Shown here: one piece after another, positions 43,337 to 64,000 of the stretch | How the letters are laid out: each line of letters begins with the position of its first letter | Position numbering within the stretch: the stretch's first letter is position 1 | NCBI GenBank assembly: GCA_950295325.1 | Contig: OX485806.1 | Span: forward strand, 46,991,169 to 47,055,168 | Direction of reading: 5' to 3' | Source: Polytrichum commune | Lineage: Eukaryota; Streptophyta; Polytrichopsida; Polytrichales; Polytrichaceae | Length of the DNA stretch: 64,000 bases | Made by a program: the position numbers and the translations under genes | The notes under the pieces: model-generated | What the model saw: only the letters and a program-made list of their open reading frames with translations | Told to the model about the DNA's origin: nothing | Databases searched by the model: none

Positions 43337-46300
43337 ATGGGAATAAGTCGATATCTGCCTGGTTTAGTGCTTATAATTGGATCAGCCTCTAACATCTCAC
43401 ATCATTTTGCATCAGAACTTATCAAGAGTGTGCACTTGTACATGGGTGAGGGCCTCGTCACCGCTGTTCAGCAAGAGTTTCTTCTGTCGCCTGATGTCTA
43501 CACTCAGATCAGTGAGCCCACGCCATCGTACTTCAGCAAATTTGCTCACAATGGTGCCAAGCAGTTCATAAACACACTGAAGCAATTGAATGAGGCGGAC
43601 TTATGGCAATGCGTACTGGAGTATTATGTTCATACGCCCCAGGATACGTCCATAATCCCTTTGTTGAGTGTATCCAAGTATGTGTCATGTCGTGCACTTC
43701 TTCGGGATAATGACATGCTTTAGACAACATGTTTCCATACCTAAGCCGTGGATCTAAGTATCTGAACTGAGCGTTCTATTTGGTTTGTATATGTTCTTAA
43801 AGGAAATGAGTGTCCAAAACAGGGCTCAGGTTTGCAGACCAATCTAACCTGGAATTTGCATTTTATGCAGGAATCCATCTCTTTATTACATTCCATCTCT
43901 GGCTGAGGACCTAGTTGAGGTTGAAAGAGCTGTCCAGAATCTTGTGCAGGGGCAGCAGCAATGCATTCCTCTTCTGGGTCTGGCTGCTTTGAATGAACAG
44001 CAGCATTTTTCTGGCAGCAGCAGCCAGTCCTTCACAAAATGTGCACATTACTCTGGAAATTCTCCAAAGTGGAACTTCACTGGCTTATCAGGTTTGAATG
44101 TTGATTCAGCTGGTATGAGCGACTCTATGGTGGACGGAGTACCCAGTGAGACGAATTCACAGGTGGAAAACCTGCATGACTGGGGTTCAGATTTGGAACT
44201 GGCAAGTCCTCGGATGTTCGAGACATGTGTGTTAGGTTCCTCCTGGAGCACAAGCATCTCCAGTATGCCTTTAACAGGTTAGAACGTTAATTTATGGTAA
44301 ATGAAATCGACTTGTGAATCTTTATTTTCCTAGTTGGTCAGGACTTGGTCAGGGATGTTTAGTGCGGCTTAAGGTGAATTATAAGTTCACAATTTGTTTT
44401 GGTCATCTTAGGGGTTCTTCGTTAGTTCAGATTAATTCTGCTGTCTTGTATACTGCTGCACGTATGACATTCTTCTTGAATGGTAGGGCTGATATCAGCT
44501 TCAAGTCTGACATCGAGCATGGTCACCAACCACAAGTCCGACTACACCTCTTGGAGCCCTTCGTCGCTGGTTCTAGAATCACAGATGGCTGGAGCATATA
44601 CTTTTCATGACTCCTCATTATTGTCCGATGACAACAGTTTTGGTCAGGCTAAGCTGGTTACTGTCAGCGACGCATCACAATCAGGAGATCTCTGTCATTC
44701 CGGGTCTTACCTAGGTCCTGCCTGTGCAAGTGCCATGGTGTCTGACACAGTGAGTTCTCATGCGGTGAGGAGTATGGCTGAAAGGACAATCTCCTATTGC
44801 AGTGACGAAAGTGTTGGTGAACAGGCTGGGCCTGAGAGGTTGCCTTCAGGCTTTTCTTCTGTTGTGTTGCCCTTTGGATCTTTAAATTGCATATCTACAG
44901 AATGCAGGGAAGAGATCCTTCGACAGCAATTTTCTTCATTTGAGCCTACTCAACTAGGGAATGATGTTGGTCTCAGGGTAGAAAACTTTCCCATGAAGAT
45001 ATTGGGCGAAGAGGCTGAGCTTCCCAACCAGCGAGGGGCGACGGAGAGGATGACGGAGATTACATTGCATGAACTGTCTCATTATTTCCATATGCCTATT
45101 ACTCAAGCCTCCAAAGAGCTCAAGGTTGGCCTTACTGTTCTTAAGAAGAGGTGCCGGGAATTTGGAATTCCTAGGTGGCCGCATCGTAAGATGAAGAGCC
45201 TCAACAGTCTTATCCAAAACATCCAGGTAAATTGCTTGCCTTGTTTACATTGGGCTCAACTGAATATCAATCCTAAAGTGTACAAATTACTAGCTTGAAG
45301 ATCTTGATTCAGGAGATTGAATCCTCTCCTTGCACCTCTGGTACGTACATTTCAGAGCTATTGCATCATAGATGAGCCATCAGACCTTAAAGGAGTGTTA
45401 AATTAAGCCAGTTTCTTCCTAACTTCTACTGATTGGTAGAGCCCAGCGGGAATTTGAAAAGGAAGGTTTGGGTATCATCCTACTGACAAGTTATTCTTAC
45501 ACATTATCTTTCTTGACATTGTAAGTCTGGTTGAGTTCATTTGAATTCACTTAGAAAGAGGCACCTACTTTCCTATCTGAATGTTTATTTTCACTGGGCA
45601 TGCTGGTCATGTTGGGCACATTATTTCTGCACATGTTCATTCTCTTGCTGAGCGCTGCACTAACTGAGTAGTGCATTGAGCAGCCTGTAGCTCTCTTCCT
45701 TGAGTTGTAGATGTATTTTATGATTGTTTTTCTAAGTTTGGGGTGTAAAGTTGTGACTGTTGTGTTGTAAAAAGAGATAACTCGGTTGACCACTGTGCTT
45801 CAGTTCTAGACAAGAAGTTTGCTTTGAAAGCTGCTGGAATATAATGGACATAGATCTGAGTCTTCAGTTTAAGCAAAACTGGGCAGATTGACTGCAATGA
45901 AACTTGCGTCAAATACTTCAAGCATGGTACTCAGGGGATGTCTCAGAAGCGTTTGTGATAATGGCCACATTGTCTGCAGAAAGCATGAGCAGGCATGATT
46001 ATTTTATTCTTAGAGAATCCCTTAATGTTGTCTTCAGACAAGTACTTGGATCTGTCAGGAAGTGGGCAGTGTCTTAACACATTGAGAGGTGCTTTTCCTG
46101 GGCTATGCTACAGTTAGACACTCCATTTTAATCAGGTGTGCCTCCTGAGTTTGTAGCAAAGTTTATGGCTCGTGGTTTTTCAAGAAGTGTTGCAGGAGCT
46201 TGGTTTGTTGAGAATTTTTAAGTCAACAGACTTTCCTATGTATTATAGCTGAACCTTTATCGCTTGTCTGAAATTGATGAAGTCAATCAAGAGTTTCAGT

Positions 46301-48150: not shown

Positions 48151-49800
48151 GCTTTACACTACGATGCACTGGTTGGTCAAGAATTTTATGCTGGAGAAGA
48201 GGAAAGGACAATAAAAAAATCTTTATGACGTCTTGATTGGCCGTAGTGTAACCACTTAGAGGAGTGTATTGGACAACTTCATCAAAAGAAGTAGTCCACG
48301 GTATGACTTCAGTCATAGTTGGCCATAGTAGAAACCTTACCCTTTAAAGGACCATTATATTGAGATTTAAAAAAATTGTATTGAAATGAAATAAGTTGTA
48401 TATAACAATGTTTTAGAATTTCTTTCATGACCTTGTAAAAAAGAGTCCAAAAATGTAATTGTATTTATTTTAACTGTCATAATCTGTTATGCCATGCGGT
48501 AAAAACAATCCAAAAAAATTCCATAGATCTGTTAAAAAATCCAAAACAAAATCCTACGGTTGGAAATTAAATGGCATGTGTTTTTTTCCCCGGTTTTGCT
48601 CTTTGTACTTGTAAGGCAAATTTTGAGGGATCATTGGAGAACATAGTTATAGTCTTTTAGGAGTGAAGAGGAAAAATTTCATATACATTGTAGGAAACAC
48701 TACTCTTCTTCAATATATAATACACAAATTACTCCAAATCATTTTCTTTAATTTCTCTCCATTCTACATTGATTTCAATCAAGGACAATCGAAGAGAGAT
48801 TGTTCTAGTTTCATTTGGGATATTTATGGTTATGAAGCATATTATTGTTTCAGTTATGGCGGTTTAGAAAACTGTCATCTAACAACATAATGTTGCAATT
48901 ATGATGATGAATTTATTTTTAAATTTGGAAGCAAAGAGAGAGTGGTGTGGAAATTTGATCGTCCAAATGGATATGTGTCACAAAATCTTTTTGGATCATA
49001 TAGTACAAGAATGCTTCAAGATTGTCTATGGGTGAGTAGACTTACATTCACATATTTATGTCATTTGCTTGGATCCATTTTAAACGAGAATGATACAAAA
49101 TTTAGATCTTGTATCCCAATAGATGTTAAAATTTAATTATATTGCATCGATTTGGTTTCGTTGATACTTTGCACATACTTGCAGATGTGTATGGTATATC
49201 AAGGCCAATTGCTTCAATCATTATTACAAATACTTGTGAGGGAATAAAAATTTGATGGGACTTTTCGTTTTCCAAATACCAACATTAAAAAAGATGAAGC
49301 AAATAATTGTAAAATTCGATAGTTTGTATGAAATTCCATACATCCTAGGGACAGTAGATGGTAGCCACATTCCAATTACTGCTCCAAGTATAGATCATGC
49401 TTCATATTATTGTAGAATAAAAAATTATTCACTTTTACTTCAAGGTGTAGTGGATTATTAATGCAAATTTTGGAATTACGATTCTGGGTGGGCAAAAAAT
49501 TTATATGACTGGTCCTTATTTCAAAAATAAAAAATGCAAAAAAAACTATGAATAAAGCATATAGACCATACAAACTAATTGAAGATGTTGCATAACCAAT
49601 ACGTCCATGGTTTTATTCGTTTTTTAACGCAAAAATAGGTTTTTCAAGAAAAAAAAACACTGGAATTTTATCCTATCAAACACTTGCATGACAATTCAAT
49701 GTGCATTTGAGATCTTGAGGGGGGATAAAAAAATATTATTGAAGAGAGTTGATATGATATTACGAATTATCCTAGATATTGTTATAACTTGTTCATGTTG

Positions 49801-49904
49801 TCGTGTAAATAACGATCGTGTGTCACTGCAGCTCGAGTACCAACCACCACTAACAAACAACACTAAAACATAGTAAAGTCACACATAAACAATACACCTC
49901 GACA
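49801..49904 (-). repeat. 104-bp direct repeat E, outer copy
   Basis: It starts TCGTGTAAATAACGATCG and ends CACCTCGACA. It is identical to 50243-50346 except for one base (AATAACG against AATAGCG). It forms the extreme 3' end of the retrotransposon next to the Harbinger target. Confidence 0.93.
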
Positions 49905-50238
49905 GAGAAGGAAGAGAGTAGAACACTTATAAGAGCTCTAAATCTCTCTTCAAATGCATACAACTAGTCAAGCTATCTCTCACTCCACCAAGGGAGAATC
50001 CAAGAGTGTAAGTAGGGGAAGAAGAACTCAAGATTTATTGCAAAATCATGCAATCTATACCTCAATCAAGCTGTCTCCACACACTAACTCACAAGATTTG
50101 ACTTGGCAAGAATGCCAAGCCAAGGAGGAGGCTCCTCACTTAGGAGCCTTCCTCTCCACATCTAGATTCATCCATCCAAATCTAGATGGATGAAACCCAA
50201 CGGATAAGGTGCGGCCGTCGACGCCACATACCGTGACA
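49905..50238 (-). repeat. LTR D fragment at the 3' end of the methyltransferase element
   Basis: These 334 bp, read on the minus strand from TGTCACGGTATG, match 61861-61730 plus 59458-59263 with about ten differences. They also match 63055 onward on the + strand more distantly. The fragment stops abruptly at CTTCCTTCTC, where the other copies continue, and repeat E follows. It is taken to be the U3-like start of the 3' LTR, truncated. Confidence 0.75.
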
Positions 50239-50242
50239 ACTA

Positions 50243-50346
50243 TCGTGTAAATAGCGATCGTGTGTCACTGCAGCTCGAGTACCAACCACCACTAACAAAC
50301 AACACTAAAACATAGTAAAGTCACACATAAACAATACACCTCGACA
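50243..50346 (-). repeat. 104-bp direct repeat E, inner copy
   Basis: This is the second copy of repeat E, separated from LTR fragment D by ACTA. On the minus strand it directly follows a purine-rich GCTGAGGGGGGG run and begins TGTCGAGG, so it also looks like an LTR start. Confidence 0.93.
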
Positions 50347-50360
50347 TGCCCCCCCTCAGC
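50347..50360 (-). promoter_or_regulatory. Polypurine-tract-like run
   Basis: On the minus strand the sequence reads GCTGAGGGGGGGCA immediately before the TGTCGAGG of repeat E. That is the position of a plus-strand primer in LTR retrotransposons. It is assigned by position and composition only. Confidence 0.5.
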
Positions 50361-50630
50361 TGATTATGAAGTCCCACCAAACAGCTAGGACCAATGCCAA
50401 TCTAAAGGGCATGGATAATGAAAGATTGCTCCGCAACTAACTAGTGTGGTAAACGTTGTTCCAAGGAACTGTAGGCTGCGTGCAAGGTGAGCCCCATCCT
50501 TAATCGCCTCTGATGTTTGGCCATCAGATCCCAAAGAATTAAATCCACCGCCTCATGTTGATTGCGTCTCTAGGTCGTAACTCCTCATATTCCATTTGGG
50601 CATGCACAAGATGATGAAAACCACACAGGA

Positions 50631-52307
50631 TCATTGAGTACGATTGGTGGAAGCACCAAGTACCGAAGATCCTCGACAGCGAGGACAACTCCACTGTCCA
50701 GATGGTAGAGAAGTCAAGGGTGGCCGCAAGCATGCCATGTGCCAACCGCGTTGACACTGATCACACAAGAGCATAGTAGCCGCTCCCTTCTTCTCTCCAC
50801 ACATAAAACATGGAAAACCCTCTGGCACGACGGCCAGTTCAGGATGAACTGTACCCTCAATAGGTAGGTGACATGGGGCACAGTTTTTGGAATGCTCGCG
50901 ACATTCCCTGGCATCCTTGCCTTCCAACAACAACAAACCACTCGGCAACACCTCCTTCACCCGAAGGATAGTGCGCCCCGCCCTGACATCCAATGTCGTA
51001 GGCGCCTCACGTTGGAGATAGACATAATCTCCCTGCCGGAATCTTCGCAACTGAGGTCGGTAAGCACCACTGCGAATGCGTGCATAACGCAATGTGTCAC
51101 GGTGCTGAGCAATGGACAAATTCTCCATGGCCATAGGCATGGCCCTCTGGAAGAATTGAGCCCGCTCCTGCAAACACTCTGCCCAAAGGTCTGGGTCATC
51201 CAAGTTCACAACAGGAGCTAGTTTTTCCCGAATAGAACTTGGGAGTATAGGCTCACGTCCATACAACAACTGATACGGGCTGTAGGATGCCAAAGAGGCC
51301 TGCCTACTAAATCGATAGCCCATAGCAATCCAAGGCAACATAAGGTCCCAATCCCGGTGGCTTCCCCGAAGTAATCCATACTTCCTCAAGCCACGCTTGG
51401 TTGTTTGAACAACTCGTTCAGCCAAGCCATCTGCCTCTGGATGATCCCGAGAGGTGGTACGGTGATCTATGAGCGCCTTAGTGCATAATTCCTCAAAAAC
51501 ACCAAGGAACTCCCTCCCTTGGTCCGTCAACACTTCAGCCGGTGCTCCAAAACGTGCTAACACACGATCCAAAAAGGCGGCCGCGGCCAACTCTGCAAAG
51601 TTTTGGGGTAGAGCAACAAGCTCAATCCACTTGCTAAAATGCTCCACCATCACTAAAACGTACTTTGCTCCACGTGGTGTAACCACCAACGGCCCTGCAA
51701 AGTCCAACGACCAACGGTAGCCCAATCCCATGATAGGTAAAGGCTGTAACTGAGGTGATAAGGTGTTAAAGCTAGACCTAACCCGGTCACAAACTTCACA
51801 CCTCCCGATATAGGCAGCTACCTGCTGATACATGCCAGTCCACCAATATTGGCCACGCAATATCGAATGTGTCCTGCGTATGCCAAAATGGCCAAGTTCC
51901 TCGTGCACTTGTCGCACCAAGGAGGCCCTCTGATCCGGCCTAGGAACAATACGCCTTGTCCCATCCGGCCACAATCGAAATAACAAACCGTTCTCCCAAC
52001 GGAACCTTGTTATTCGATGTCCAATCCTATCCCTTTCCATTGCCGAAATAGACAAAGGAAAGGTACCCTGTTGAAGCTTATGCAATACGGGAAAATCCTC
52101 CCATATATCCACAATAGCTTGAGGCCGATCAGACTCATCATCCGAACCCTGTATCGGAATCTCAACAGATGCACCAGAAAATAAAGTAAGGTAGGCAGCC
52201 GCGTGCCAACTTGGAATCGCCTCTCGATCACAATTTCCATGCCATCTGGCCCCGGTCAAGTCCTCATCTGAAGGACTTGGATTGCGTGAGAGTCTATCTA
52301 CATCCAT
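50631..52307 (-). CDS. Integrase with C-terminal PHD finger
   Basis: This 558-codon ORF contains an H-H-C-C zinc module (H135, H140, C170, C173), a DDE core (D202 in S-L-D-F, D262 in L-T-D-Q-G, E297 in L-A-E-R-V; 35 residues between the last two), then the G-D-Y-V-Y-L-type C-terminal barrel near 426. After a spacer with C-x-x-H residues, a canonical C4HC3 PHD finger follows: C500, C503, C515, C518, H523, C526, C541, C544, with the W-x-C-P-x-C ending. PHD fingers usually read histone H3 tails; here it stands where chromoviruses carry a chromodomain, so a targeting role is inferred. The ORF is uninterrupted. The upstream RNase H is in another frame, joined through a frameshift near 52310 where G-I-T-N-M-D-V-D-R-L-S-R should continue. 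Confidence 0.92.
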   Translation of the reverse strand: MDVDRLSRNPSPSDEDLTGARWHGNCDREAIPSWHAAAYLTLFSGASVEIPIQGSDDESDRPQAIVDIWEDFPVLHKLQQGTFPLSISAMERDRIGHRITRFRWENGLLFRLWPDGTRRIVPRPDQRASLVRQVHEELGHFGIRRTHSILRGQYWWTGMYQQVAAYIGRCEVCDRVRSSFNTLSPQLQPLPIMGLGYRWSLDFAGPLVVTPRGAKYVLVMVEHFSKWIELVALPQNFAELAAAAFLDRVLARFGAPAEVLTDQGREFLGVFEELCTKALIDHRTTSRDHPEADGLAERVVQTTKRGLRKYGLLRGSHRDWDLMLPWIAMGYRFSRQASLASYSPYQLLYGREPILPSSIREKLAPVVNLDDPDLWAECLQERAQFFQRAMPMAMENLSIAQHRDTLRYARIRSGAYRPQLRRFRQGDYVYLQREAPTTLDVRAGRTILRVKEVLPSGLLLLEGKDARECREHSKNCAPCHLPIEGTVHPELAVVPEGFPCFMCGEKKGAATMLLCDQCQRGWHMACLRPPLTSLPSGQWSCPRCRGSSVLGASTNRTQ

Positions 52308-52719
52308 GTTGGTAATCCCAGCTGTAAGTACGGTGTATCACCTCAAAGTCATACTCCTGGAGCAATAAAACCCACCTGGCAAGCTTGCCAGTAAGCTTAT
52401 CCGACTCCATGAGCCACCGTAACGGCTGATGGTCAGTCACTAAAGTAAAGTGTTGACCATAAAGATACGGCCGAAAATGGGCAATAGCCCATACCGCCAC
52501 CAATGCTTCTCCCTCGTAGGATGAATAATTAGCCTCCGCCGTGTTATTGCTTCGCGAAGCGTAAGCAACAACATACTCCCGACTAAAATCATCCTTCTGA
52601 GTGAAAACTGCTCCCAAACCCAATGAACTCCAATCTGTATGCAACTGGAAAGATTTGGAGACATCTGGACGTCGAAGCACTGGAGCCGTACCCAGTTTCT
52701 GCTTCAATGTCTCAAACGC
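52308..52719 (-). CDS. RNase H domain, broken at both ends
   Basis: After a TAG at 52720-52722 the reverse-transcriptase frame continues A-F-E-T-L-K-Q-K-L. It then runs into the Ty3/Gypsy RNase H with L-H-T-D-W-S-S-L-G-L-G-A-V, Y-E-G-E-A-L-V-A-V-W (the catalytic Glu region), D-H-Q-P-L-R-W-L and the R-W-V-L-L-L-Q-E-Y connection. A frameshift near 52310 separates it from integrase. The stop is consistent with a single-base change, since coding similarity flanks it directly. Confidence 0.88.
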
Positions 52720-53778
52720 CTATTGTTGCTCACGACCCCAAGTCCACGGTTGGTCCTTGCTCGTGAGAATGGTGAGAGGCTTGGCGATCAAGCTAAAGTT
52801 CTTGACGAATCGCCGATAGTAATTCGCCAAGCCCAAGAAAGCACGAAGTCTCGGCACATCAACTGGTGCCGGAATCTTCTGCAAGGCGTCCACCTTAGCT
52901 TGTTGTACCCCAAGACCTCTTGGAACAATCATATGCCCCAGATATGCCAGCCGGTCATGGAAAAACTTGCACTTGCCGTGGTGAAAGCGCAATCCCCACC
53001 GCTGCAACCGCTGCAACCGCTCAAAAACGGCTTGAAGATGCCTTACATGCTCCTGTGGTGTTATACTGAAAATGATAACGTCATCAATGTAACACCGAGC
53101 AAAGGGTAAGCAAGAGAGAACTTGGTCCATCACTCTCTGAAACTCCGCAGGTGCATTTTTCAGGCCAAACGGAAGAAACTTCCAATGGTATAGTTGATCC
53201 TTTCCATCTTGATCAACTCCCCAGAATGCGGTTTTCACTCGGTCTCCCACAAGTAATGGGAGTTGGTGATAGCCGGATCTCAAGTCCAACGTGCTAAAGA
53301 CTCGAGCAAATCCGAGGGCATCAAACAACTCCTCCGGGATTGGCATGGGATATCGATCCGACTTGGTCTTCCGATTAACTGGACAGTAATCCCCACACAT
53401 CCGCTTCTCCGTCCAATTGCCAAAGATATCCTTCTTCGTTGGCATAACCGTAGCACAAGCATACTCCCCGTTGGAAAGTTCGATTAGCCCTGCTGCCAAG
53501 AGCTCTCGGCAACGAGCTTGAACGCCAATCCGCTCGGAAACACTGAGCCTGTAAGGTCTCCGAAAAATGGGATGGTCGTCCTCCAACTGAATGTGGATGG
53601 GTTTTCCTTTATAACCTTCAAGATCCTGAAGGCTAAAAGCAAAACATCTACGGTACGAACAAATAAATGCTCGTACCTTCCGTGCCTCAGCACCCGTGAG
53701 ACGAGGGCCTAATTCAAGTGGCCAATCATCAAACTCTCTAGTCTCCCTCTCCACCAAAGAACCACTTGATGTTGGCAT
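52720..53778 (-). CDS. Ty3/Gypsy reverse transcriptase
   Basis: This 352-codon ORF contains the full RT fold order: F-R-R-P-Y-R near 72, K-R-M-C-G-D-Y near 125, L-D-L-R-S-G-Y-H-Q near 164 (first catalytic Asp), F-L-P-F-G-L-K-N-A-P near 201 and Y-I-D-D-V at 230-234. The thumb/connection start follows, with L-R-A-F-L-G-L-A-N-Y-Y-R-R-F. Catalytic residues are intact. Its ATG is probably not a natural start; it lies in a different frame from the upstream linker (ending at 53784), so a frame change interrupts the polyprotein there. It terminates at a TAG, beyond which RNase H continues in the same frame. Confidence 0.93.
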   Translation of the reverse strand: MPTSSGSLVERETREFDDWPLELGPRLTGAEARKVRAFICSYRRCFAFSLQDLEGYKGKPIHIQLEDDHPIFRRPYRLSVSERIGVQARCRELLAAGLIELSNGEYACATVMPTKKDIFGNWTEKRMCGDYCPVNRKTKSDRYPMPIPEELFDALGFARVFSTLDLRSGYHQLPLLVGDRVKTAFWGVDQDGKDQLYHWKFLPFGLKNAPAEFQRVMDQVLSCLPFARCYIDDVIIFSITPQEHVRHLQAVFERLQRLQRWGLRFHHGKCKFFHDRLAYLGHMIVPRGLGVQQAKVDALQKIPAPVDVPRLRAFLGLANYYRRFVKNFSLIAKPLTILTSKDQPWTWGREQQ

Positions 53779-53783
53779 AGACT

Positions 53784-54065
53784 CTAATTGCTAATGAGAG
53801 GAGGGGGCATTAACCATGCCCCAGTCTTGGTGCTAGTACTAGAGTCTGACATTTCTTCATCACCACCAATATGTGATGATGAAGCCACCACCGGAGGCGA
53901 AGAAACCGAAGCAGTGTAAAAATGTTGAGCTCGAAGCTCCTCCATCACATGCTGCTCGAATTGAAAAATTCGTTCGGCTTCTCCAACCATGGCGTGAATT
54001 CCCTCTTCCATGGGTGTGGACCGCTGTACCCCCTGACCATAGTCCTCTGCCCCCAGAAACAACCA
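53784..54065 (-). pseudogene. Linker between methyltransferase and reverse transcriptase
   Basis: This is in the same frame as the methyltransferase ORF but behind a TAG at 54066-54068. About 93 codons of acidic, Ser/Thr-rich sequence follow (E-E-L-R-A-Q, S-S-P-P-V-V-A-S-S-S, D-E-E-M-S-D-S-S-T-S-T). No domain is recognised. It is presumably the natural continuation of the polyprotein. Confidence 0.55.
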
Positions 54066-55727
54066 CTAGTCACCAGGATGCCTTTGCAATGAAAGGCATA
54101 AAGCAACAGTCCACACCATAGTATGAAGATCCATAGCTTGGCCCAACACGAAGCGTCGTTGGCCCTCAAAAAGGCCGGGAGCTGCGGTGGTGCCAGTGCG
54201 GAATCCCATGGCACACTCCCGTTCGTCAGCCAATGGTTCGGTGTGGGTTTTGGTGTGAACATCCCACACCATACCCGGCCCCTTATCGCGGAAAACGAAT
54301 GACTGTGGAAACGTCATAAATGTGGGAAAGGCCTGCCGTGGTGCCCCCATTTTGTTGACCAATGCCAACGGGGGTAAATCATCTCGAACAACCGACAAAG
54401 AGGTCCGGTTTGGATCCAAGATGTCATCCACCTTCTGATCCAAAGGTGGAGACAGTGCAGAAAATGCTGTAGCTAAAGTAGATGACGGTGCGAGGTTGGT
54501 CCAAATCCACCGAGGCCGGTGGGCATAAGAACCAATGCTCGCAGCATCCACAAAAATGGGATCTCCAAGGTGTTGACGAACATAATGACCGCCTTCCAAC
54601 ACCTTGTCCCGAGAGTCTCCCAACAAAGGTACATTCTCGAAGATATACCTTGGAGGGGAAGGTTGGTGGGTAAACCACCACTGCATAAGCCAGATGAGGT
54701 CCCAGAAAAGGCTGGACCTGGGATCCTCTAAACCTCGGCCTGCTCCAGCACGTGAGTGGCCTTGGCATGGCCAACCCGCAATCACCATATCCACCGGGCC
54801 CAAATGTCGTAAGTCGGCCTCACTGATGTGTGTAACATCACGAGGGAGACGTGAAAAACACCCATGAATGGCAGTTGGGTGTAACTCCTGGGGGTACAAT
54901 ACCATTAACTGGTGAAGATGGTGACGAGCCACACGGGTGGACACTGGAGAGTTGTCCACATAGACATACCGTCTGACCGTGAGGCCAGCCTCCAAGATGG
55001 CTGCTAAGCCCGTGCCGATGCCCCCAAACAGTTCCACCAAAATAATCCCCGCGTCTGGCGGCTGCCATAAAATGGGATGTGCCAATGCCGAGAGGACACC
55101 CGGTATGACCGGTGTCCTAGAAGTGAGAGAGTGAACAATATCCTCGCACCTCCGAAATAGCTCGGCGGAATCACGCCAAGGAGGAATGGGATCCTTGGGA
55201 TGGCGCACCAATGCACCCTTAGGTGCCATATCCTGTTGATCGTCTATACTCCCCATGAATGCCAATGATTCCTCCAACAATGCGGAACCATAAGGCAATG
55301 TGTCCACCATAGCACTACATCCAAAAACCATAGATAATGGTGCTATGGTCGCGGCCGCCGCGAAAGCCACGGGAATAAGTTCCCTGCGGCCATCCCTAGC
55401 CGACCAACCTGGTCGGATCCATGCTTCCTCAGTCCAGTTGTCCAAACCAAAACCAAGAGGGTAAAGTGATTGCTGACCAACTAAAATGTCATAGTTGGTC
55501 GCATCTGTCACCGCACACCTAAGAAGAAGAGGTGCGGGTGAATCTCCAGGCTTCACTCGATAGCTAAGCTGTAATGGCTCTCGAGTATAACCCATGGCCC
55601 GCTCCACGTGACCAATGGATGTGACAATGGTAAATGGACAAGGAACCAAGTCGTCGGCCATCAATCGCAATTCCTGCGCAAGCTTTTTGCCGATCATAAC
55701 AGGTTGTGCTCCTGAATCCATCATCAC
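54066..55727 (-). CDS. Aspartic protease fused to C5-cytosine DNA methyltransferase (DNMT3-like)
   Basis: An uninterrupted 553-codon ORF. The N-terminus is a retropepsin: D-S-G-A-Q-P at 4-9 and I-L-V-G near 81. After a spacer, a complete methyltransferase domain spans about 225-553: motif I V-E-L-F-G-G-I-G-T-G-L at 231-241 (SAM binding), Y-V-D-N-S at 256-260, motif IV G-W-P-C-Q-G-H-S with catalytic Cys321, motif VI F-E-N-V-P with Glu364, motif VIII R-P-R-W-I-W-T-N at 404-411, and motif X-like R-R-F-V-L-G-Q-A-M-D at 524-533. Motif order is canonical, not the rearranged order of DRM enzymes. G-I-G-T-G-L and the S-Y-A-H-R-P-R-W region resemble DNMT3 more than MET1/DNMT1. The likely reaction is 5-methylcytosine formation on DNA. 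All catalytic motifs are present, so this domain could still be active if expressed. Confidence 0.92.
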   Translation of the reverse strand: MMMDSGAQPVMIGKKLAQELRLMADDLVPCPFTIVTSIGHVERAMGYTREPLQLSYRVKPGDSPAPLLLRCAVTDATNYDILVGQQSLYPLGFGLDNWTEEAWIRPGWSARDGRRELIPVAFAAAATIAPLSMVFGCSAMVDTLPYGSALLEESLAFMGSIDDQQDMAPKGALVRHPKDPIPPWRDSAELFRRCEDIVHSLTSRTPVIPGVLSALAHPILWQPPDAGIILVELFGGIGTGLAAILEAGLTVRRYVYVDNSPVSTRVARHHLHQLMVLYPQELHPTAIHGCFSRLPRDVTHISEADLRHLGPVDMVIAGWPCQGHSRAGAGRGLEDPRSSLFWDLIWLMQWWFTHQPSPPRYIFENVPLLGDSRDKVLEGGHYVRQHLGDPIFVDAASIGSYAHRPRWIWTNLAPSSTLATAFSALSPPLDQKVDDILDPNRTSLSVVRDDLPPLALVNKMGAPRQAFPTFMTFPQSFVFRDKGPGMVWDVHTKTHTEPLADERECAMGFRTGTTAAPGLFEGQRRFVLGQAMDLHTMVWTVALCLSLQRHPGD

Positions 55728-55742
55728 ACACTGGGGAGCAAC

Positions 55743-56100
55743 TCAAATAGGGTTGCCCCCAGTCCGACTGACCATCAAAATGCCAGAATCATTCACCATC
55801 CGTACAACGCCAGGTCGAATGCCTCGACGCTCGCGAGCAGGTCGAGCAGCTACATCTGAAAGACAAGCGGCGCCTGCAGAGGCTGGTGAAGCAAAAGATG
55901 AGGTTGGCTCTTGGCCATCCAAGGTGTGTGCGTCAAAAGACGCAATGGCCTCAACCGCAAGCCTTGCTCGCCATTTGGCCGCTTCTTCCAAATTTTCCGT
56001 GGTAGGAAGGTCCACGGTGGCTTGAGCCACAGTCAAAGAAGGCGGGAATGCCTTGCCCTCCAAAATCCTACCTGCTAGGTGGAAAGCCTTAGCGGGTTGG
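55743..56100 (-). pseudogene. Pre-protease region of pol
   Basis: In frame with the protease-methyltransferase ORF, separated by a TGA at 55743-55745 just before V-A-P-Q-C-V-M-M-D-S-G. The upstream text (E-E-A-A-K-W-R-A-R-L-A-V-E-A and S-F-D-A-H-T-L-D-G) continues to about 56100, where the coding frame seems to shift to that of 56089-56412. TGA is one C-to-T step from CGA. Confidence 0.6.
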
Positions 56101-56468
56101 ACATAAAGATGATGACCACTCCATGGCCGTGAACAAAGGTGTGTGCAACACCTTGGATGCCAACGTGTGCGCCACATTGGTCGCTGAATGTGAAACCTCA
56201 TTGTGCGGATGACGACCACTGACAGATTGGACGGCATCGGCCAATCCAAAAGATAATGGTAGTCGTGCCTGACCAATTTGGTCGGCGGGCGCATTGTCCC
56301 GAGCTCGCGAACTTGCCACATATTCATTTGTGGTCAAAGGTATGGATTGTGACACGGCTTGAGCACGTGTCACGGCCGCGGAACTCACCACCTCGCCCGA
56401 GGCTCCGAACATATAGTAATCCGAAGTGGAAGAACTAGCCTGAGCTCAGGTCGGAAAAAGGACGTTTC

Positions 56469-57782
56469 TCAGGATGGAGAGCAAAGCAGTTCTCTACCCG
56501 CGTGATTGTTCCGCCCACAATGGGAACACTTCAACTGCTTGGGTAACTGATTACCCGTCGTCCCCTTCGCCGAGCCCTTAGCGGGAACAAATGGTTTCCG
56601 CTTCGGAGTAGTGACTGTCTGGGCTTGCCTTTGCTTCGAAGGACAGTCTTTCTTAGCGTGGCCGGCCTGCCCACAAGACCAACAATACATGGTCTTGTCT
56701 ACCTCGGCCTCCGCCAATCCCGCAGCCGCAACCGGAACTCTTCGGGATTTGCTAGAATCTACTAGCAGGGAGACCAAATCAGTGGCGTCGTGCTGACACA
56801 ATGCACGATCACACTGCTCCACAATGGCAAATGCCTCTGCGAGTGTCGCCCGACCACCATAATCCATGATGATCCTGGGTAGCGCCAAGTCAAGGAGGCG
56901 TTTGTCAATCTTGGACAAAAACACCTTCACCAATTGACTTTCCGCAAACACACCTCCAGATTCTCTAGCAAACCTCGCCAACCTCGTATACATGGTACGA
57001 GGTGTATCGTCCTTCTCCCGTCTAAAATCTTGTATCCGCTGCATCTGGTCCCGACGGAAACCTCCGTACTCCTCATGTAGATGTAGCTCAAATACCCGCA
57101 ACGGCTCAAAAACTGGCGGAGCCCCTAAAGAGGCTAAAGCCGCTTGGGTAGCCTGGGCATAACGGGAGAGTGGAAGAATGGGGCTCGACGTACTCGCCAC
57201 AGCGGGAGCAGATACCTTATCCTTGGGTTCACCAGGAGAAACTCCCTCCACGTCCACCACAAATACTCCCTCCGGTACCTCCGATTTAACCTCAGGGACG
57301 GCCATGAAACTAGAAGTTGCGCCTTCCTTCAATGCGGATACCAACTCAACCCGAGTCTCCCAGTACCGCTCCACCTGGCGCAACTCCATTCAATGAGCCT
57401 CCGTCCACTACTCATAAGTTTGGAGAGCTTCATGCTCTAAATGCTGAGGCAGAAGCTCGAACACATACCAATCGTTAAAATTGGTATTGCGTTGGCGTTT
57501 CTCTCGCATCCACGTACGAAACCGGATTTTCCAGTCTTGCTGAGAAATGGTCCCTGCTCGACCGGAAAACCGGTCCCGTATCCCTCCCCTAGTCTCCTCC
57601 TCCATATCGCCAAAGGTTCCCACCCACAGGACGTGAGACCGAGTGATAGTCCCCCACGCCGAAGTAGGCTGAAAAACCTCGTTGGGTGCGACCACTGGTT
57701 CAACGTCTGAGAGGTCCGAGGAATGACCTTCCGATGCTCCTGGAGACGGAGAACGATAGTGTTGAGTACGAGTTGTAACCAT
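56469..57782 (-). pseudogene. Gag with CCHC zinc knuckles, broken by two stops and frameshifts
   Basis: Reading from ATG 57782 (M-V-T-T-R-T-Q), a Gag N-terminus runs to a TAG at 57408-57410, then a TGA at 57390-57392, and continues in the same frame. It includes F-E-L-H-L-H-E-E-Y-G-G-F and M-Y-T-R-L-A-R-F-A-R-E-S (retrotransposon gag family) and a zinc knuckle C-W-S-C-G-Q-A-G-H-A-K-K-D-C. A second knuckle, C-S-H-C-G-R-N-N-H-A-G, is cut by a one-base frameshift near 56494; the other frame supplies C-F-A-L-H-P-E-K. Nucleocapsid function is thus known for the family but lost in this copy. Confidence 0.88.
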
Positions 57783-58315
57783 AAACCCACAATGGGATGG
57801 TCACCGAATCAACAACCCAAATGAATTAGTATCCACGTACAAAGAGAAAAAGGGTCAGAGGCAACCTGCACCTGCAACCACCACCAAAACTTATGGTCTG
57901 CTGGTCATTAACCCAGCCTCACCACAAGTGAAAACAAGCACCGCCCACTTGGTGCACAAACAAAGGTCCCGTCGGTCATTAATCCGACCTCACCTCCACA
58001 GTACCTTATCACAATCTAGGACTACACAAAATGGGGCAGTGCTAGAACACTCCAGCACTACAGCCCGCCACAGGGGAAAGTACCAAAACAAAATACAAGG
58101 AACAATGCAAGAACAACACTGGATCCTCTTCCCCAAAACAACATTCAAACAAAAATTGAAAACGACCGCAACCAACTGGCACCCGCTTGCAGTTGGTGGT
58201 CAAAATGAAGAGCCCCTGTTGCTTAAGAAAATGAAATGCTACCTATGCACATCTCTCATCTTCCCACTACAACCTAAGAATCCCTCCTCACAAGAATGCC
58301 GAGAATATGTGTTGA
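57783..58315 (-). other. Leader between LTR-like region and gag
   Basis: About 530 bp of non-coding minus-strand sequence upstream of the gag ATG. I could not find a primer-binding site matching initiator-Met or other common tRNA ends, so the exact 3' end of the 5' LTR is unresolved. AATGACC occurs twice (about 57906 and 57974, minus strand). Confidence 0.5.
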
Positions 58316-61300
58316 CAAACACAATTCGACCTTAATAATAATTTATTTTAGGCCGAACGAAAATTCCACATGCCACCCAATTCCCAATGACACTCCCCTC
58401 GGAAATTTCGTACAACACAACCCCTAAAAATGATCCCAAGTATTTTTAATATTTCACAAGAGCTTCGGTTTTCTTCCTTGTATCCTTGATTAATGAGCCC
58501 AAGAAATTAACCTCTTAGAGAGAAAAGAAAAATTAGAAGTTGAAAGGAAATTATAATAAATAATAAAAATGAAAATGAATGAAATTAATTATTTAATTAT
58601 TTAATTAAATGAATTAAATTAAGTCCGGTTTTTAATTCATTAACGCATTGATTAATTAAAAAAACAAAAACAAAAACAAAATAACAATACACAACCGGTT
58701 GGACTTACAAACACTAGGGTCTCAACCAGTTGGGCTTGCAAACACTAAGGTCTCAACCGATTATACCTACAATCTCCCCCTACTGCCAGCTAAGGTGGCT
58801 GGCATGCTAGCTAGCAGGCAGCCGCCGCCGCTGCCGCAGGCTGGCAGGCAGGCAGCTGCCAGCAGACAGGGACCAACAGCAAGGGAGGCAGGCCGCCTCC
58901 CTCTTGTTCCGTTTTTTTTTGTGTGTTCTCTTTGTTTTTGTCTATTTGATTCACAGATTTTGCACTTAGAATCACAAATTCGCTTCCAAAAACTCAATGT
59001 CACGAATTCAAGCTTGAATTCGAGCCAAATAACATGAAATTCCGTGGAAAATTGAAGAATTTGTCATCACAATTCACCTCATTGTGACATTCACAAACAA
59101 GCGTGTTTCTTCTTGTTGTTTCATGAATTGTTGGTGTTTTTCCTTCCACAACTCCGACACTTCGTCGCTCCTTGCCTTCACGCCCTTCCTAGCGTGTTAA
59201 ATCTCAAGAATGAAGAAGAAAACATAAAAAAATAAAGCATTCTTGCCAAGTGAGAAGGAAGAGAGTAGAACACTCATAAGAGCTCTAAATCTCTCTTCAA
59301 ATGCACACAACTAGTCAAGCTATCTCCCACTCCACCAAGGGAGAATCCAAGAGTGTAAGTAAGGGAAGAAGAACTCAAGATTTATTGCAAAATCATACAA
59401 TCTATACCTCAAACAAGTTCTCTCCACACACTAACTCACAAGACTTGACTTGGCAAGATGTTGAGTACCAACATTATGAGAGAGAAATAAGTCACAACAG
59501 AGCACCTAAGGGCATCAAACATCACCAAAAGGAAGAACATCATCACCAAAAGGAAGAACATCATCACCGAAATGAAGAAATGAAGAGAGGAACACGAAGA
59601 GAGCTCTCCGAAGCTCGGCCACGGAATTAGGCCCTCCTTCCACGGAGATACAAGACCGACGCGCGGTTATGGGGTCCCTTACCCACGGGTATAGGGCCAT
59701 CAGCGTTTTAGTGAAGGAGAACTTAGGAATTGAGTGGGAGGATATTATACTAGTATAGAGGAGTTAATATTGAGCATTAGGAGGCATAAAGAAATATAAG
59801 ATTTTGGGTTTAAAAGACTATTTTGAAAAGGCATTATGAAGCCTTTAGGAGATAGATAGAATATAGGATTTTGAGGATGAATGATTATCCGAATAGACAT
59901 GATTATGGAATATATAGAATGAAGAATTTGAGGAAGCATGATTATGAATTATGTAAGAATTTTAGATTCTTATGATACAAAAACATTATGAAGATGCATT
60001 ATGAGCAAGGATAGATTCTACTAGTATGTTTAATACAAATCATTGGAATCAAGCAAATGTGAAGACTTGATGGCATTCTCAAAAGGAATTACAATGTAGC
60101 CACGACAAAGATATAGTAGAATCTTAGAGATTTGAACATTCAAATGGTAAAACGGTTATAACCGTTTAGGTTAGATATCATCTACATATGATGGAGGAAT
60201 TTAGTTATCTAGGAAAGCGGAGATAACAACCACTCTTAGTATAGATTTTGGATAGGAAGAAAAGACTATATAAGGGAAGCATTTTAGGAGACCTACACCT
60301 CATTTTCTACACAACGAAGTTATCATAAATTTGAGTGTCAAGAATCACTTGAAGCTTTTGTAACTCTCCTCCCGGAGCACTTTTGCAATACATTATCTTT
60401 TCTACAAATGCGTGTGACCTTTCTACCTCTCTCTCAAATTGTCTTACAAAGTTTGTCAAGCGGTACTTGGAACTTGAGTGATTAAGCAACCGAGAGTAGA
60501 GTAGCTTGAGTAGACTCTTTTAAGAAAGAAGTCAATAGATAGTGCGAGGGTGAGAACAAAGCGCTCAAGACAAATTGGAGAATCAATGGAACTTTGAGAG
60601 AGATTGAATTAAGAAAACGATTGTCAAACTTGAGTGAAGGAAACAAGATTATCTCTCAAAGTGGAACTTATCATTGATCTCCTAAAAAAGGAATTATAAA
60701 TAAATATATGTGATTGAATTCTTGAAGAATTATAATGCATGAATGATTAAAGTAAAACCTCTTAACGAATACAAAGTCCTTTAAAAGAGGAAGAACTTAT
60801 TATTATAACTACATAATCGACTTATAAGTATTGCACATATTATACTACATATTGATTGTTGAACTTATGATTGACAAGAATGATGAAGACATTAATTCAC
60901 ATCAAAGTTTGAATACATATGAATGAAGTAATATTGATATAAGATAATCTACTTACTACAATTGTTATTGAACCTCTTTCTTTTAAGATAATTTGTGAGT
61001 TGTTGGATGTCATTATAAGTTGAAAGAGTTGTCTCTCTTGAACAAACACTCAAGAGAGTAATGTAAGAATGATGTTCAAATCTTCTCGTCATCAAGAAAC
61101 ACTTTGTAGTAAAAGTGCTTCTTCTTTTAAGATACTTTGTGAGTTGTTGGATGTCATTAACAATCGAAGAGTTCTTTCTCTTGAATAAACCTCACGAGAG
61201 TTATAATTATTCTTTTTATAAAAACACTTTGAAGTTAAACGTGACATTGCAAAACAATCAATGATGTGTTCATGAAATTATAACTACTATATGTATACAT

Positions 61301-61861
61301 GTCAAGTTACAATATTACAAGTAGTAACACTTGAGCTTAAAAAGGAAGACTCAAGAATATTAGATCTTCTTCATCATTATAAGATTACTTTCAATTGCGT
61401 GATTGATGTTTATGAACTACGAACCTTAAGGATTCATATTGAAAACTATATTATTATCGAGGATATTGTTACACCTCTTAAAGCTTTCTTTAAATCTAAT
61501 GGTTCTTATTATCAATGATGCCTTACATTGAGAGTAAGAATTAAGATAATGAGATTGTGTTCACTCCAATAATTATATTCATATCATAAGGAGAAGAGAA
61601 GGATTATTAATCCAAGACCAAACATATTAATGAGGCACGGTAGTTCTTAAGCGAATATAAATTTACGTGATGTTTCACCGTGAGTCTTCTTGAGCTAATT
61701 TGCAAGGGAACGACCCACGGGGTGCATCACAAGAATGCCAAGCCAAGGAGGAGGCTCCTCACTTAGGAGCCTTCCTCTCCACATCTAGATTCATCCATCC
61801 AAATCTAGATGGATGAAACCCAACGGATAAGGTGCGGCCGTCGACGCCGCATACCGTGACA
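58316..61861 (-). mobile_element. 5' LTR-like region D of the methyltransferase element, with nested solo LTR
   Basis: On the minus strand it starts TGTCACGGTATGCGGC at 61861. After removal of the insert 59459-61729 its first ~330 bp match the 3' fragment 49905-50238 at roughly 97% by eye. The following ~600 bp match the + strand copy at 63055 onward, including GAAGGGCGTGA and GGTGAATTGTG. A GC-rich GCAGGCAG/GCCGCC stretch lies at 58795-58895. A GGGGGAGATTG run lies at about 58770-58780 (minus strand). The end position 58316 (GTCAACA) is a guess. Confidence 0.6.
59459..61729 (+). mobile_element. 2.27-kb solo LTR nested in LTR D
   Basis: Begins TGTTGAGTACC and ends GGGTGCATCA, flanked by a perfect 5-bp duplication CAAGA (59454-59458 and 61730-61734). 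The uninterrupted target GGCAAGAATGCC is present in the LTR D copies at about 50105 and 63185 (the latter reversed). No gag or pol text lies inside; orientation is not established. It holds an 18-bp minisatellite CATCACCAAAAGGAAGAA (about 59520-59570) and two copies of a TTTTAAGATA.TTTGTGAGTTGTTGGATGTCATTA theme at 60980 and 61128. Confidence 0.85.
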
Positions 61862-62274
61862 ATGCCTCCACAACTTGTGCATCATACATGGTGATGAATT
61901 TGACTTAAATTGGACAAAGGGTGCAATAGAAATTATAAAGATGATATCATTGGAAATATTTGGTGATTTTAGAATTATAGATATATTTTATGTTCTAGAA
62001 GCAAGTATAGCTGAGATGAGGTATATATAAAATCAAGAGGTACAAATAAAAGTCAATGACCTTGTAGAGAATGATACAAACAAATTGGATATTGTACAAT
62101 TCAAAGAAAATGTTGTTGAAACAAAAGTAGACTATGAGAAAAATATCAAAAATATGTTAAAAGAAGCTACCCGAGTTTATTTGATGTAGGTAAAATCCAA
62201 TTACACGAAGTAGTTAGGAAAAAAAAAACAAAACTATCATTTCCAGCGGATATTATTATTGATATAGAAAAATA

Positions 62275-62730: not shown

Positions 62731-63054
62731 TCATGCTCGAAGCCAAATCATATATAATTTTCTGTTCAAAATGAATTATAACATTAGAATACTATGCAAT
62801 ATGATATGTTGGAGAATGTTAAAATGCTTTAAAATAAAATTCAAATCTTAAAAAATGGCCTTGAAATATTTAGGGTAGTACATGCTTGGATAGTGTAGAA
62901 TGAATATAAAAACAATATATGGATCTTTTAGCATCAAGAAAAGAGAAAGGCTAAAATTTATTTGGTTGGTGAAGTGTAGAGATAAGGCTTTAAATCCATA
63001 AGGTCCATAGTTTGATGCTCGGTAACATTGTTTTGATTGAACCTCCATTTGATT

Positions 63055-64000
63055 TGTCACAGTATGCGGCGTTGGCGGCCGCACTTTATCCGTTGGGCTT
63101 CATCCATTTAGATTTGGATAAATGAATGTTAGATGTGGAGAGGAAGGCTCGTAAGTGAGGAGCCTCCTTTTTGGCTTGGCATTCTTGCCAAGTCAAGTCT
63201 TATGAATAAGTGTGTGGAGAGAGTTGGTGTGAGGTGAAGATTGCATATTTTTGCAATAAATCTTGAGTTCATCTCCTATTTCTTACACTTTTAGATTCTC
63301 TCGTGATGGAGTGAAAGATAGCTTGACTCATTGTCTGCATTTGAAGAGAAATTAAAGCTCTTTTAAGGGTTTGACTTTCTTCCTTCTCACTTGGCAAGAA
63401 TGCTTCATTTTTCTTTTTTTCTTCTTCATTATTGAGATATTATGTGCAAGGAAGGGCGTGAGGACAAAGAGTGACGAAGTTGTAAAATGTTGGAGCGAAG
63501 AACACCGCGGATTTGTGGGGCAACAAGAAAAAAATTGGTTGCTTGTGAATGCCACATCAAGGTGAATTGTGGTGATGGATTATTGAATTATCTATGGAAT
63601 TTCTTGTCATATATTCACTTACAAGCTTGAATTCACATCATTGAGCTTGTGAAGAGCATTTTGGATTTCGATTCAAGTTTAATTTCATTCAAAAAAAATT
63701 AAAAATTAAAATAAAATAGGAGAGGCGGAGGAGCTCCTCTGGGATCTCCTATTTCATCAAGGTAGCTAGTGGCCGTCTGAAGGCACGCGGCGTCAATCCG
63801 CTCCCCCCTCTCCCGTCCCCATTCCTCCCCCTCTATCCCAGCTAGCCCCCCCTAGCCTCCCCCTACCTAGCCCCCTAGCCTATCCCCTAGGCCAACGCAC
63901 CTAAGCCTCTCCCCCCTAGCTAGCCTAGGCCCCCCTAGGACCACCCCCTAGACCCCTACCCCCCCCCCCCCGTCTACGTTTCCCCTCCCCCCCACCGACA
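63055..64000 (+). mobile_element. LTR D copy in + orientation, cut by the window end
   Basis: Begins TGTCACAGTATGCGGC and follows the same order as 61861-61730 and 59458-58900 on the minus strand: CTTTATCCGTTGGGCTTCATCC, GGAGCCTCC, TTGGCAAGAATGC, GAAGGGCGTGAGG, GGTGAATTGTG. It is more diverged than the two copies inside the methyltransferase element. Whether a full element follows is not visible. Confidence 0.8.
63770..63998 (+). repeat. Pyrimidine/C-rich low-complexity tract in LTR D
   Basis: Strong strand bias with CCCCCTAG, CTAGCC and CCCCTCC words and a run of 13 C near 63959. The corresponding part of the other copy (58795-58895) is also GC-rich but of different sequence, so this segment of the LTR is hypervariable. 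Confidence 0.75.

Follow-up and report, generated by a model that had tools for sequence, protein, structure and literature searches.

We identified, in a 64,000-nucleotide stretch of the Polytrichum commune genome (assembly GCA_950295325.1, contig OX485806.1, positions 46,991,169 to 47,055,168 of the forward strand; hereafter, the window), a Ty3/gypsy retrotransposon that carries its own cytosine-5 DNA methyltransferase (MTase) of the DNMT3 type. The window copy is an old, dead member of a recently active retrotransposon of the same kind as KnitGypsy-Dnmt3 of Klebsormidium nitens, which the portion of PMC5890265 that covers it describes as having a DNMT3 in its Pol open reading frame and a DIRS-like repeat arrangement. 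The published case had been regarded as a capture confined to a single lineage of algae; in the plant genome examined here, elements of the same kind are abundant. Our best explanation as a whole, which joins the element itself, stop-codon readthrough, integration by way of a DNA circle, and an MTase that marks the element's own complementary DNA (cDNA), has in our judgment an even chance of being right.

A Ty3/gypsy element with an embedded methyltransferase

The element occupies about 9.8 kb, to which a foreign insert of 2271 bp is added (Table 1). The open reading frames of the window include five long minus-strand frames that belong to it: two Gag pieces, the protease (PR) joined to the MTase, the reverse transcriptase (RT), and the integrase (IN) with a PHD finger. 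Pfam searches of these five frames returned DNA_methylase (E = 1.1e-10), RVT_1 (3e-25), Integrase_H2C2 (8e-17), rve (4e-13), and PHD (1e-10), while the zinc knuckle and the protease scored below the Pfam cut-offs. The Pol is thus of the Ty3/gypsy type with a DDE-type integrase, and among solved structures the RT is closest to that of Ty3 (E = 1.9e-48). These results bear out an earlier note on this DNA, written from the letters alone, which had described a Gypsy retrotransposon with a DNMT3-like C5-methyltransferase lying between protease and RT and had proposed a profile search of the domain; the same domain order was found in other copies in the genome.

The MTase has DNMT3, and not DNMT2, as both its best profile match and its best fold match. 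Its motif I lies ahead of motifs IV, VI, VIII, and X, the canonical, unrearranged order. We therefore rejected an origin from DRM, in which the order is rearranged (VI–X before I–IV), as is also seen in the host's own DRM exons (locus L078). That the element recently took up the DNMT3 of its host is likewise disfavored: the host DNMT3 exons at L084 and L086 resemble human DNMT3B (E = 6e-12 and 1e-10), whereas their match to the element MTase is weak (E = 0.01, spanning 17 residues). Another host locus, L085, looks like a further DNMT3 (DNMT3B, E = 2e-11; element MTase, E = 0.2), and the locus G000:C5:18911305 matches the same DNMT3B stretch as the host DRM exon.

The window copy bears several marks of decay. 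Gag is interrupted by stops at 57410, 57392, and 55745, with loss of frame between them, a TAG (54068) stands right behind the MTase, and the RNase H part contains a stop and a lost frame. The MTase domain itself is uninterrupted.

Genomic copies and selection

Searching the 407.8 Mb assembly, nearly all of which is contained in seven large contigs, with the PR-MTase region gave at least 79 matches, 11 of them within stop-free frames of at least 1340 codons. A search with human DNMT3B gave 149 genome matches, many of which coincide with places found by the PR-MTase query; three that were inspected are host genes. We compared the 30 loci that scored best among the 79 matches, and the exact motif IV is retained in 26 of them.

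To describe selection, we estimated the ratio of nonsynonymous to synonymous substitution rates (dN/dS) from the eight of these 30 loci that are open through PR, MTase, and RT. The ratio for the MTase was 0.25 (codon bootstrap 0.18–0.35), indicating purifying selection. Among the other parts, it was 0.28 for the protease, 0.57 for the spacer before the MTase, and 0.73 for the linker that follows the MTase; the Gag C-terminus, taken from the five of the eight loci in which it is open, gave 0.28. A set of 21 loci open over PR-MTase gave 0.27. That the MTase is a chance insertion next to pol, a misread domain, or a functionless passenger is accordingly scarcely credible: the window copy is indeed dead, but the domain matches its profile, copies occur genome-wide, relatives have the same order, and the MTase is under purifying selection.

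Two of the element's repeats, termed A1 and A2 below, differ at 0–3 of about 333 bases in all seven copies measured. The insertions are therefore recent, and the family appears, from these sequences, to have been active recently.

The methyltransferase ends the frame ahead of a putative leaky stop

Gag, protease, and MTase are encoded in one frame, which continues past an amber codon into RT, RNase H, integrase, and PHD. The first in-frame stop lies 276 bases past the MTase in 22 of the 30 loci. Immediately past the place of this stop, 22 loci have an open RT in that frame, a set that overlaps with the former yet differs from it. Twenty-eight loci are equally long, and their nonamer at the stop is TAGCAATTA (UAG-CAA-UUA) in 23, TAGCAGTTA (UAG-CAG-UUA) in three, and different from both in two, including the window copy; the context UAG-CAR-UUA is hence present in 26 of the 28. 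It conforms to UAG-CAR-YYA, which we take to be the leaky stop of the tobacco mosaic virus (TMV) type. The MTase would therefore be the C-terminal part of the product made before readthrough. Metagenome proteins agree with this layout: P0020 and P0024 join Gag, protease, and spacer in a single frame, and P0012 does so for the end of Gag, the protease, and the beginning of the MTase. An MTase that ends a Gag-PR-MTase frame, with RT, RNase H, IN, and PHD behind a TMV-type readthrough context, was not found in print in the open-licence literature.

Kinship with KnitGypsy-Dnmt3 and comparison with other elements

The earlier note had left undecided whether the element belongs to a known lineage or represents a new capture. 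On the features compared, we firmly regard it as being of the same kind as KnitGypsy-Dnmt3 rather than a new capture. According to the part of PMC5890265 on that element, both have a Ty3/gypsy Pol, an unrearranged DNMT3-class MTase, and repeats ordered A-coding-B-A-B, and both MTases are under purifying selection (Ka/Ks < 0.2 there). A Klebsormidium protein aligns with 56% of the window integrase-PHD query at 56% identity. No protein named as Klebsormidium was among the MTase matches listed, and the KnitGypsy-Dnmt3 MTase was compared through its published description. The two elements differ in host and in the frame that holds the MTase, which PMC5890265 assigns to the Pol open reading frame. 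In the main text of that paper, the terms protease, PHD, and target site had no hits; neither leaky stop nor primer figures in its section on KnitGypsy-Dnmt3, no term search having been made for these two.

Other retrotransposons with their own DNMT, SymbioDIRS-Dnmt3 and SymbioLINE-Dnmt of Symbiodinium, also include two coexisting domain orders but, in the account of PMC5890265 available to us, are built on a tyrosine-recombinase DIRS or a LINE backbone, in contrast to the DDE-type integrase and 4-bp target duplications found here. DIRS/PAT-like elements share the split direct repeats A-body-B-A-B with the window element, which differs from them in its Ty3-type RT, its target duplications, and the absence of a Pfam match to a tyrosine-recombinase family in the five frames, where rve is found instead; we thus do not assign it to DIRS. 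Nor do we assign it to the chromoviruses: no chromodomain was matched in the five frames at E 0.1, and the PHD finger sits in its place at the integrase C-terminus. The self-priming Ty3/gypsy elements Tf1/Sushi and Tcn1 (PMC6317226, as far as it treats them) have in common with the window element a self-primer, which is predicted here. In contrast to them, the window element has a PHD rather than a chromodomain, split repeats, and a complementary stretch whose start lies about 124 bases into the repeat.

Split repeats and a predicted circular intermediate

The repeats of the window copy, A1, B1, A2, and B2, are ordered A-body-B-A-B. We fetched the ends of 20 better-preserved copies, so that the shares of structures are not representative of all copies. 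Both ends were seen in 16 of them, 11 with the order A-body-B-A-B and five with A-body-B; in the other four, one end was beyond the fetched stretch or not found. A 4-bp target duplication is exact in 15 of the 16 and matches at three of four bases in the remaining one; that of the window copy is GCAT/ACAT. Nine compared copies start with TGTCAC and finish with ACACGA-CA, and in the same nine, a polypurine tract (PPT) lies directly ahead of B1. Directly behind A1 stands ACTTGGCAAGAATGC or a near-match, whose perfect complement of 11–15 nt was found inside A in all 11 sequences compared (for the window copy, A1 was joined across its insert).

Given the PPT ahead of B1 and the self-primer site behind A1, the predicted cDNA has B+A as its long terminal repeat (LTR). 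Consistent with this, the A/B joint equals the predicted end-to-end joint of primer-binding site (PBS) and PPT, with 0–2 mismatches of 48, in nine of ten testable copies. The B/A boundary reads ACACGA-CAGC-TGTCAC, that is, the palindrome GACAGCTGTC, in 11 of 11 copies, and the termini of the copies coincide with this palindrome inside the repeat unit, which suggests that the integrase opens circular DNA there. The integrated order would accordingly correspond to a two-LTR circle opened at the B/A boundary, and replication by circle opening is, in our view, a supported inference. The A-body-B form would result from the opening of a one-LTR circle or from a linear cDNA cut twice. A precedent exists in foamy virus: according to PMC1180852, its integrase cleaves 2-LTR circles at the palindrome where the two LTRs are joined. 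A DDE integrase that cuts a palindrome, as proposed here from sequence, would be common to both; the foamy virus palindrome forms at the LTR-LTR joint, whereas that of the window element lies inside the LTR.

Some observations do not favor the circle route: the tenth testable copy (L013) has extra bases at the A/B joint, and recombination between B1 and B2 accounts for the A-body-B form just as well. The A-body-B-A-B order could, moreover, arise with no circle at all, if reverse transcription (for example, with strand transfer between B1 and B2) produced linear DNA that integrates by its ends in the ordinary way. A linear cDNA would ordinarily give TG..CA ends and 4-bp duplications, and we rate this alternative as falling only a little short of even. 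It is at odds with the LTR = B+A predicted from the PPT and the self-primer site, and with A/B joints that fall on the PBS/PPT borders. DIRS-like repeats with 4-bp duplications and termini at an internal palindrome were not found in print in the open-licence literature; split repeats combined with integrase-type duplications point to a Gypsy integration route that we did not find described.

Relatives in green lineages

Three protein searches yielded 254 different proteins (two of the searches contributing the best 120 of 249 and the best 120 of 320 matches), 143 of which contain the MTase domain. Assigned with our own profiles, the domain orders were PR-MTase in 14 proteins, MTase-IN(-PHD) in 16, RNaseH-MTase in one, and PR-MTase-IN-PHD in one; the rest were fragments or lacked the MTase. 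A second order thus exists, in which the MTase is next to the integrase; the place of the RT in it is indicated by the single RNaseH-MTase protein, P0196. Most integrase relatives long enough to cover the region have a PHD behind the integrase; among solved structures, the closest PHDs belong to chromatin readers such as CHD4, KDM5, and UHRF1. The catalytic cysteine is present in at least 97 of the 105 relatives whose match spans motif IV, counting the variants GRPCQ and GFPCQ. For motif VI, a coarse pattern matched 83 of 126, a count to which we give no weight.

An integrase tree of 118 sequences separated, with a branch support of 100, 56 sequences from 62. The former include all 13 MTase-IN sequences and the named chlorophytes Volvox, Pleodorina, and Chromochloris; the latter include all 20 RNaseH-IN sequences, the window element, and ten named streptophyte sequences (four each from Klebsormidium and Calypogeia, and one each from Riccia and Marchantia). 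In an MTase tree of 66 sequences with a model coverage of at least 255 (107 proteins had at least 200), nine MTase-IN sequences, three of them labeled from their tails, form one clade (98) and five of the six PR-MTase sequences another (98); the sixth, P0205, owes its label to a weak RT match. Both position clades were retained in MTase trees with one outgroup omitted. In a 46-sequence tree (coverage of at least 270; 17 near-copies removed, and a DNMT3C piece omitted from all trees), 42 retrotransposon MTases form one clade (96/97) and the cellular DNMT3/DRM enzymes another (95/82), while the MTase-IN clade is weak (83/11).

This single clade favors, and does not establish, one old capture, because the cellular sampling is thin (one host DNMT3, one host DRM, and human DNMT3B, plus a phage Dcm). 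Alternatively, related DNMT3 genes may have been captured twice independently, by streptophyte elements between PR and RT and by chlorophyte elements before the integrase. The pol positions do differ, and the position classes separate in both the MTase and the integrase trees; against it stands the union of all 42 retrotransposon MTases to the exclusion of the cellular and phage enzymes, and we consider two captures the less probable history. PMC5890265, in the portion concerned, calls KnitGypsy-Dnmt3 an independent acquisition in the Klebsormidium lineage. The fullest scenario holds that a PHD-integrase Gypsy lineage captured one DNMT3 before the chlorophyte/streptophyte split, that the MTase was subsequently relocated from one to the other of two pol positions, that self-primed cDNA circles are opened by the DDE integrase at the LTR palindrome, and that the Gag-borne MTase marks the circle before integration; as a conjunction of all these parts, it is doubtful.

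Only a few of the MTase-bearing proteins are named. P0171 from Sphagnum bears the MTase and falls inside the PR-MTase clade; P0142 from Marchantia polymorpha (Mp_7g09570) is a remnant with the end of PR, two MTase pieces, part of IN, and PHD; and P0141 from the chlorophyte Pleodorina has a partial MTase match (E = 4e-7) ahead of IN. All matches listed from Klebsormidium, Calypogeia, Riccia, Volvox, and Chromochloris were proteins of the integrase type. MTase-bearing relatives in Sphagnum, Marchantia (as a remnant), and a chlorophyte (partial), as well as the second domain order, were not found in print in the open-licence literature. Searches of the same literature listed no paper that treats an MTase-bearing Gypsy element of bryophytes or chlorophytes, which is weak evidence of absence. 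Of the works examined in part, PMC6317226, a survey of plant LTR elements, has neither PHD nor methyltransferase in its main text, and PMC6453930 treats cellular plant DNMT3. Two of three viral contig scans revealed no relative and the third yielded a phage Dcm (L001), used as an outgroup only; a plasmid scan gave only distant matches of at most 31% identity.

Several proteins merit separate mention. The annotated host gene Mp_7g09570 looks like a decayed element of the window element's family. The MTase P0009, whose name assigns it to a 'Candidatus Obscuribacterales' assembly, also belongs to this family (69% identity) and is a probable contaminant of a bacterial bin. Three chlorophyte-type IN-PHD proteins, P0144, P0081, and P0094, have a further domain behind the PHD. 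In P0144 (Chromochloris), this domain has a weak match to the D12 class of adenine methyltransferases (E = 0.0027, below the Pfam cut-off), with DPFSGNGA and SPWF stretches; the extra C-terminal domain of P0081 had no D12-class match in Pfam. Some chlorophyte-type elements may thus carry a second DNA methyltransferase.

A proposed role for the methyltransferase

We propose that Gag-PR-MTase would be made in excess over the readthrough product, which would place the MTase inside the particle where cDNA is made. First-strand synthesis would be self-primed and second-strand synthesis would start at the tract before B, yielding a cDNA with LTR = B+A. Upon circularization, this cDNA would carry the joint CTTCTC-TGTCGAGG, and the integrase would cut the palindrome at the B/A boundary, making A the left end and B the right. 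Ahead of integration, the MTase would methylate the finished double-stranded cDNA or circle, most likely at CG by analogy with active dinoflagellate enzymes. A new copy would thus arrive premarked and escape the treatment that the cell gives to foreign DNA lacking methylation. Our best guess for the role of the enzyme is that it methylates the cDNA of its own element, since it is predicted to be made together with Gag, in the particle where the cDNA arises. The earlier note had suggested that a methylating retroelement could mark its own or host copies. With the element abundant in a plant genome, MTase-bearing relatives in other green lineages, and a second domain order, it has become a testable question why a retrotransposon keeps an enzyme that makes the very mark hosts use to silence transposons.

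Several points weigh against this proposal. The MTase is less constrained than the RT (dN/dS 0.25 versus 0.095 in the eight loci), and four of the 30 loci lack the exact motif IV. Between copies, the share of C-to-T changes is 0.048 at CHG, 0.039 at CG, and 0.025 at CHH, compared with 0.010 for T-to-C. Because C-to-T is raised in all three contexts, the copies look methylated, though not in CG alone, a pattern that points to the host's ordinary silencing and away from a self-mark limited to CG; a scar of CG-specific self-methylation was looked for in the mutation pattern of the copies and none was found. When expressed in yeast, the Klebsormidium domain produced no methylation, a result that its authors, in the relevant part of PMC5890265, call inconclusive, and no Gypsy MTase has so far had its activity demonstrated.

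The MTase might instead act after integration, on flanking host chromatin or sister copies, with the PHD-integrase picking the site, the MTase seeding methylation at it, and the element gaining either because the host is harmed less (self-restraint) or because silent chromatin shelters the copy. The PHD finger and its resemblance to chromatin readers fit such a role, as does the methylated look of the copies, and self-restraint is among the options raised in PMC5890265. Yet host silencing gives the same mutation pattern, and most of the MTase would be made without the PHD, both being joined only in the rarer, inferred readthrough product; we find a post-integration role unlikely. More unlikely still is that the domain acts on a nucleic acid other than DNA, as an RNA methyltransferase or as a packaging or chaperone module in which catalysis is secondary. 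Fusion to Gag, the site of RNA-binding parts, would suit that function, and the lack of detected DNA activity in the Klebsormidium domain (PMC5890265) agrees with it. The four loci without exact motif IV have an open PR-MTase frame, and P0155 and P0197 have PYQ at this motif. Nevertheless, the best match to DNMT3 instead of DNMT2 and the widely conserved catalytic cysteine speak against such a function.

Features of the window

The coordinates of the element and its parts are given in Table 1. The 2271-bp insert is probably a solo LTR of another element.

Table 1 Features of the retrotransposon and its surroundings in the window
Feature	Position	Strand	Basis or remark
Whole element with 2271-bp insert	49799..61861	-	Starts TGTCAC.., ends ..ACACGACA; repeats, termini compared with other copies
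5' repeat A1, first piece	61730..61862	-	99% identical to 50107-50239
5' repeat A1, second piece	59252..59458	-	96% identical to 49905-50111
Insert in A1, 2271 bp	59459..61729		TG..CA ends, 5-bp duplication CAAGA
Presumed primer-binding site ACTTGGCAAGAATGC	59237..59251	-	Complementary to stretch inside A (self-primer)
Gag part, broken	55740..57782	-	Frame lost near 56500, regained by about 56130 (compared with relative P0015)
Aspartic protease (DSGAQ)	55428..55727	-	Weak Pfam match; relatives
DNMT3-type C5-methyltransferase domain, uninterrupted	54084..55055	-	Profile and fold matches
Premature TAG directly behind MTase	54066..54068	-	Unique to window copy among the 30 loci compared
CAT-TAG-CAA-TTA leaky-stop context	53785..53796	-	Out of frame in window; divides Gag-PR-MTase from RT in other copies
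Reverse transcriptase frame	52720..53778	-	End stop where relatives read on
RNase H part, broken	52308..52719	-	No long frame; judged against relatives
Integrase frame (H2C2 zinc-binding and rve core)	50631..52307	-	Open reading frame and Pfam
PHD finger at integrase C-terminus	50676..50810	-	Pfam, structure matches
Polypurine tract CAGCTGAGGGGGGGCA directly before B1	50347..50362	-	Comparison with other copies
Repeat B1	50243..50346	-	Repeat comparison
B/A junction, palindrome GACAGCTGTC in other copies, mutated in window	50231..50249	-	Copy comparison
Repeat A2	49905..50239	-	Repeat comparison
Repeat B2	49801..49904	-	Repeat comparison
5' end of second, diverged copy	63054..64000	+	Starts with A too; no B seen ahead of A

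Elsewhere in the window, plus-strand positions 92-4570 hold an open Gypsy frame of 1492 codons (PR, RT, RNase H, IN) that belongs to another family and has no MTase; its observed/expected ratio is 0.81 for CpG and 0.34 for CHG. An exon at 44480-45298, also on the plus strand, encodes an RWP-RK domain (Pfam, E = 7e-25).

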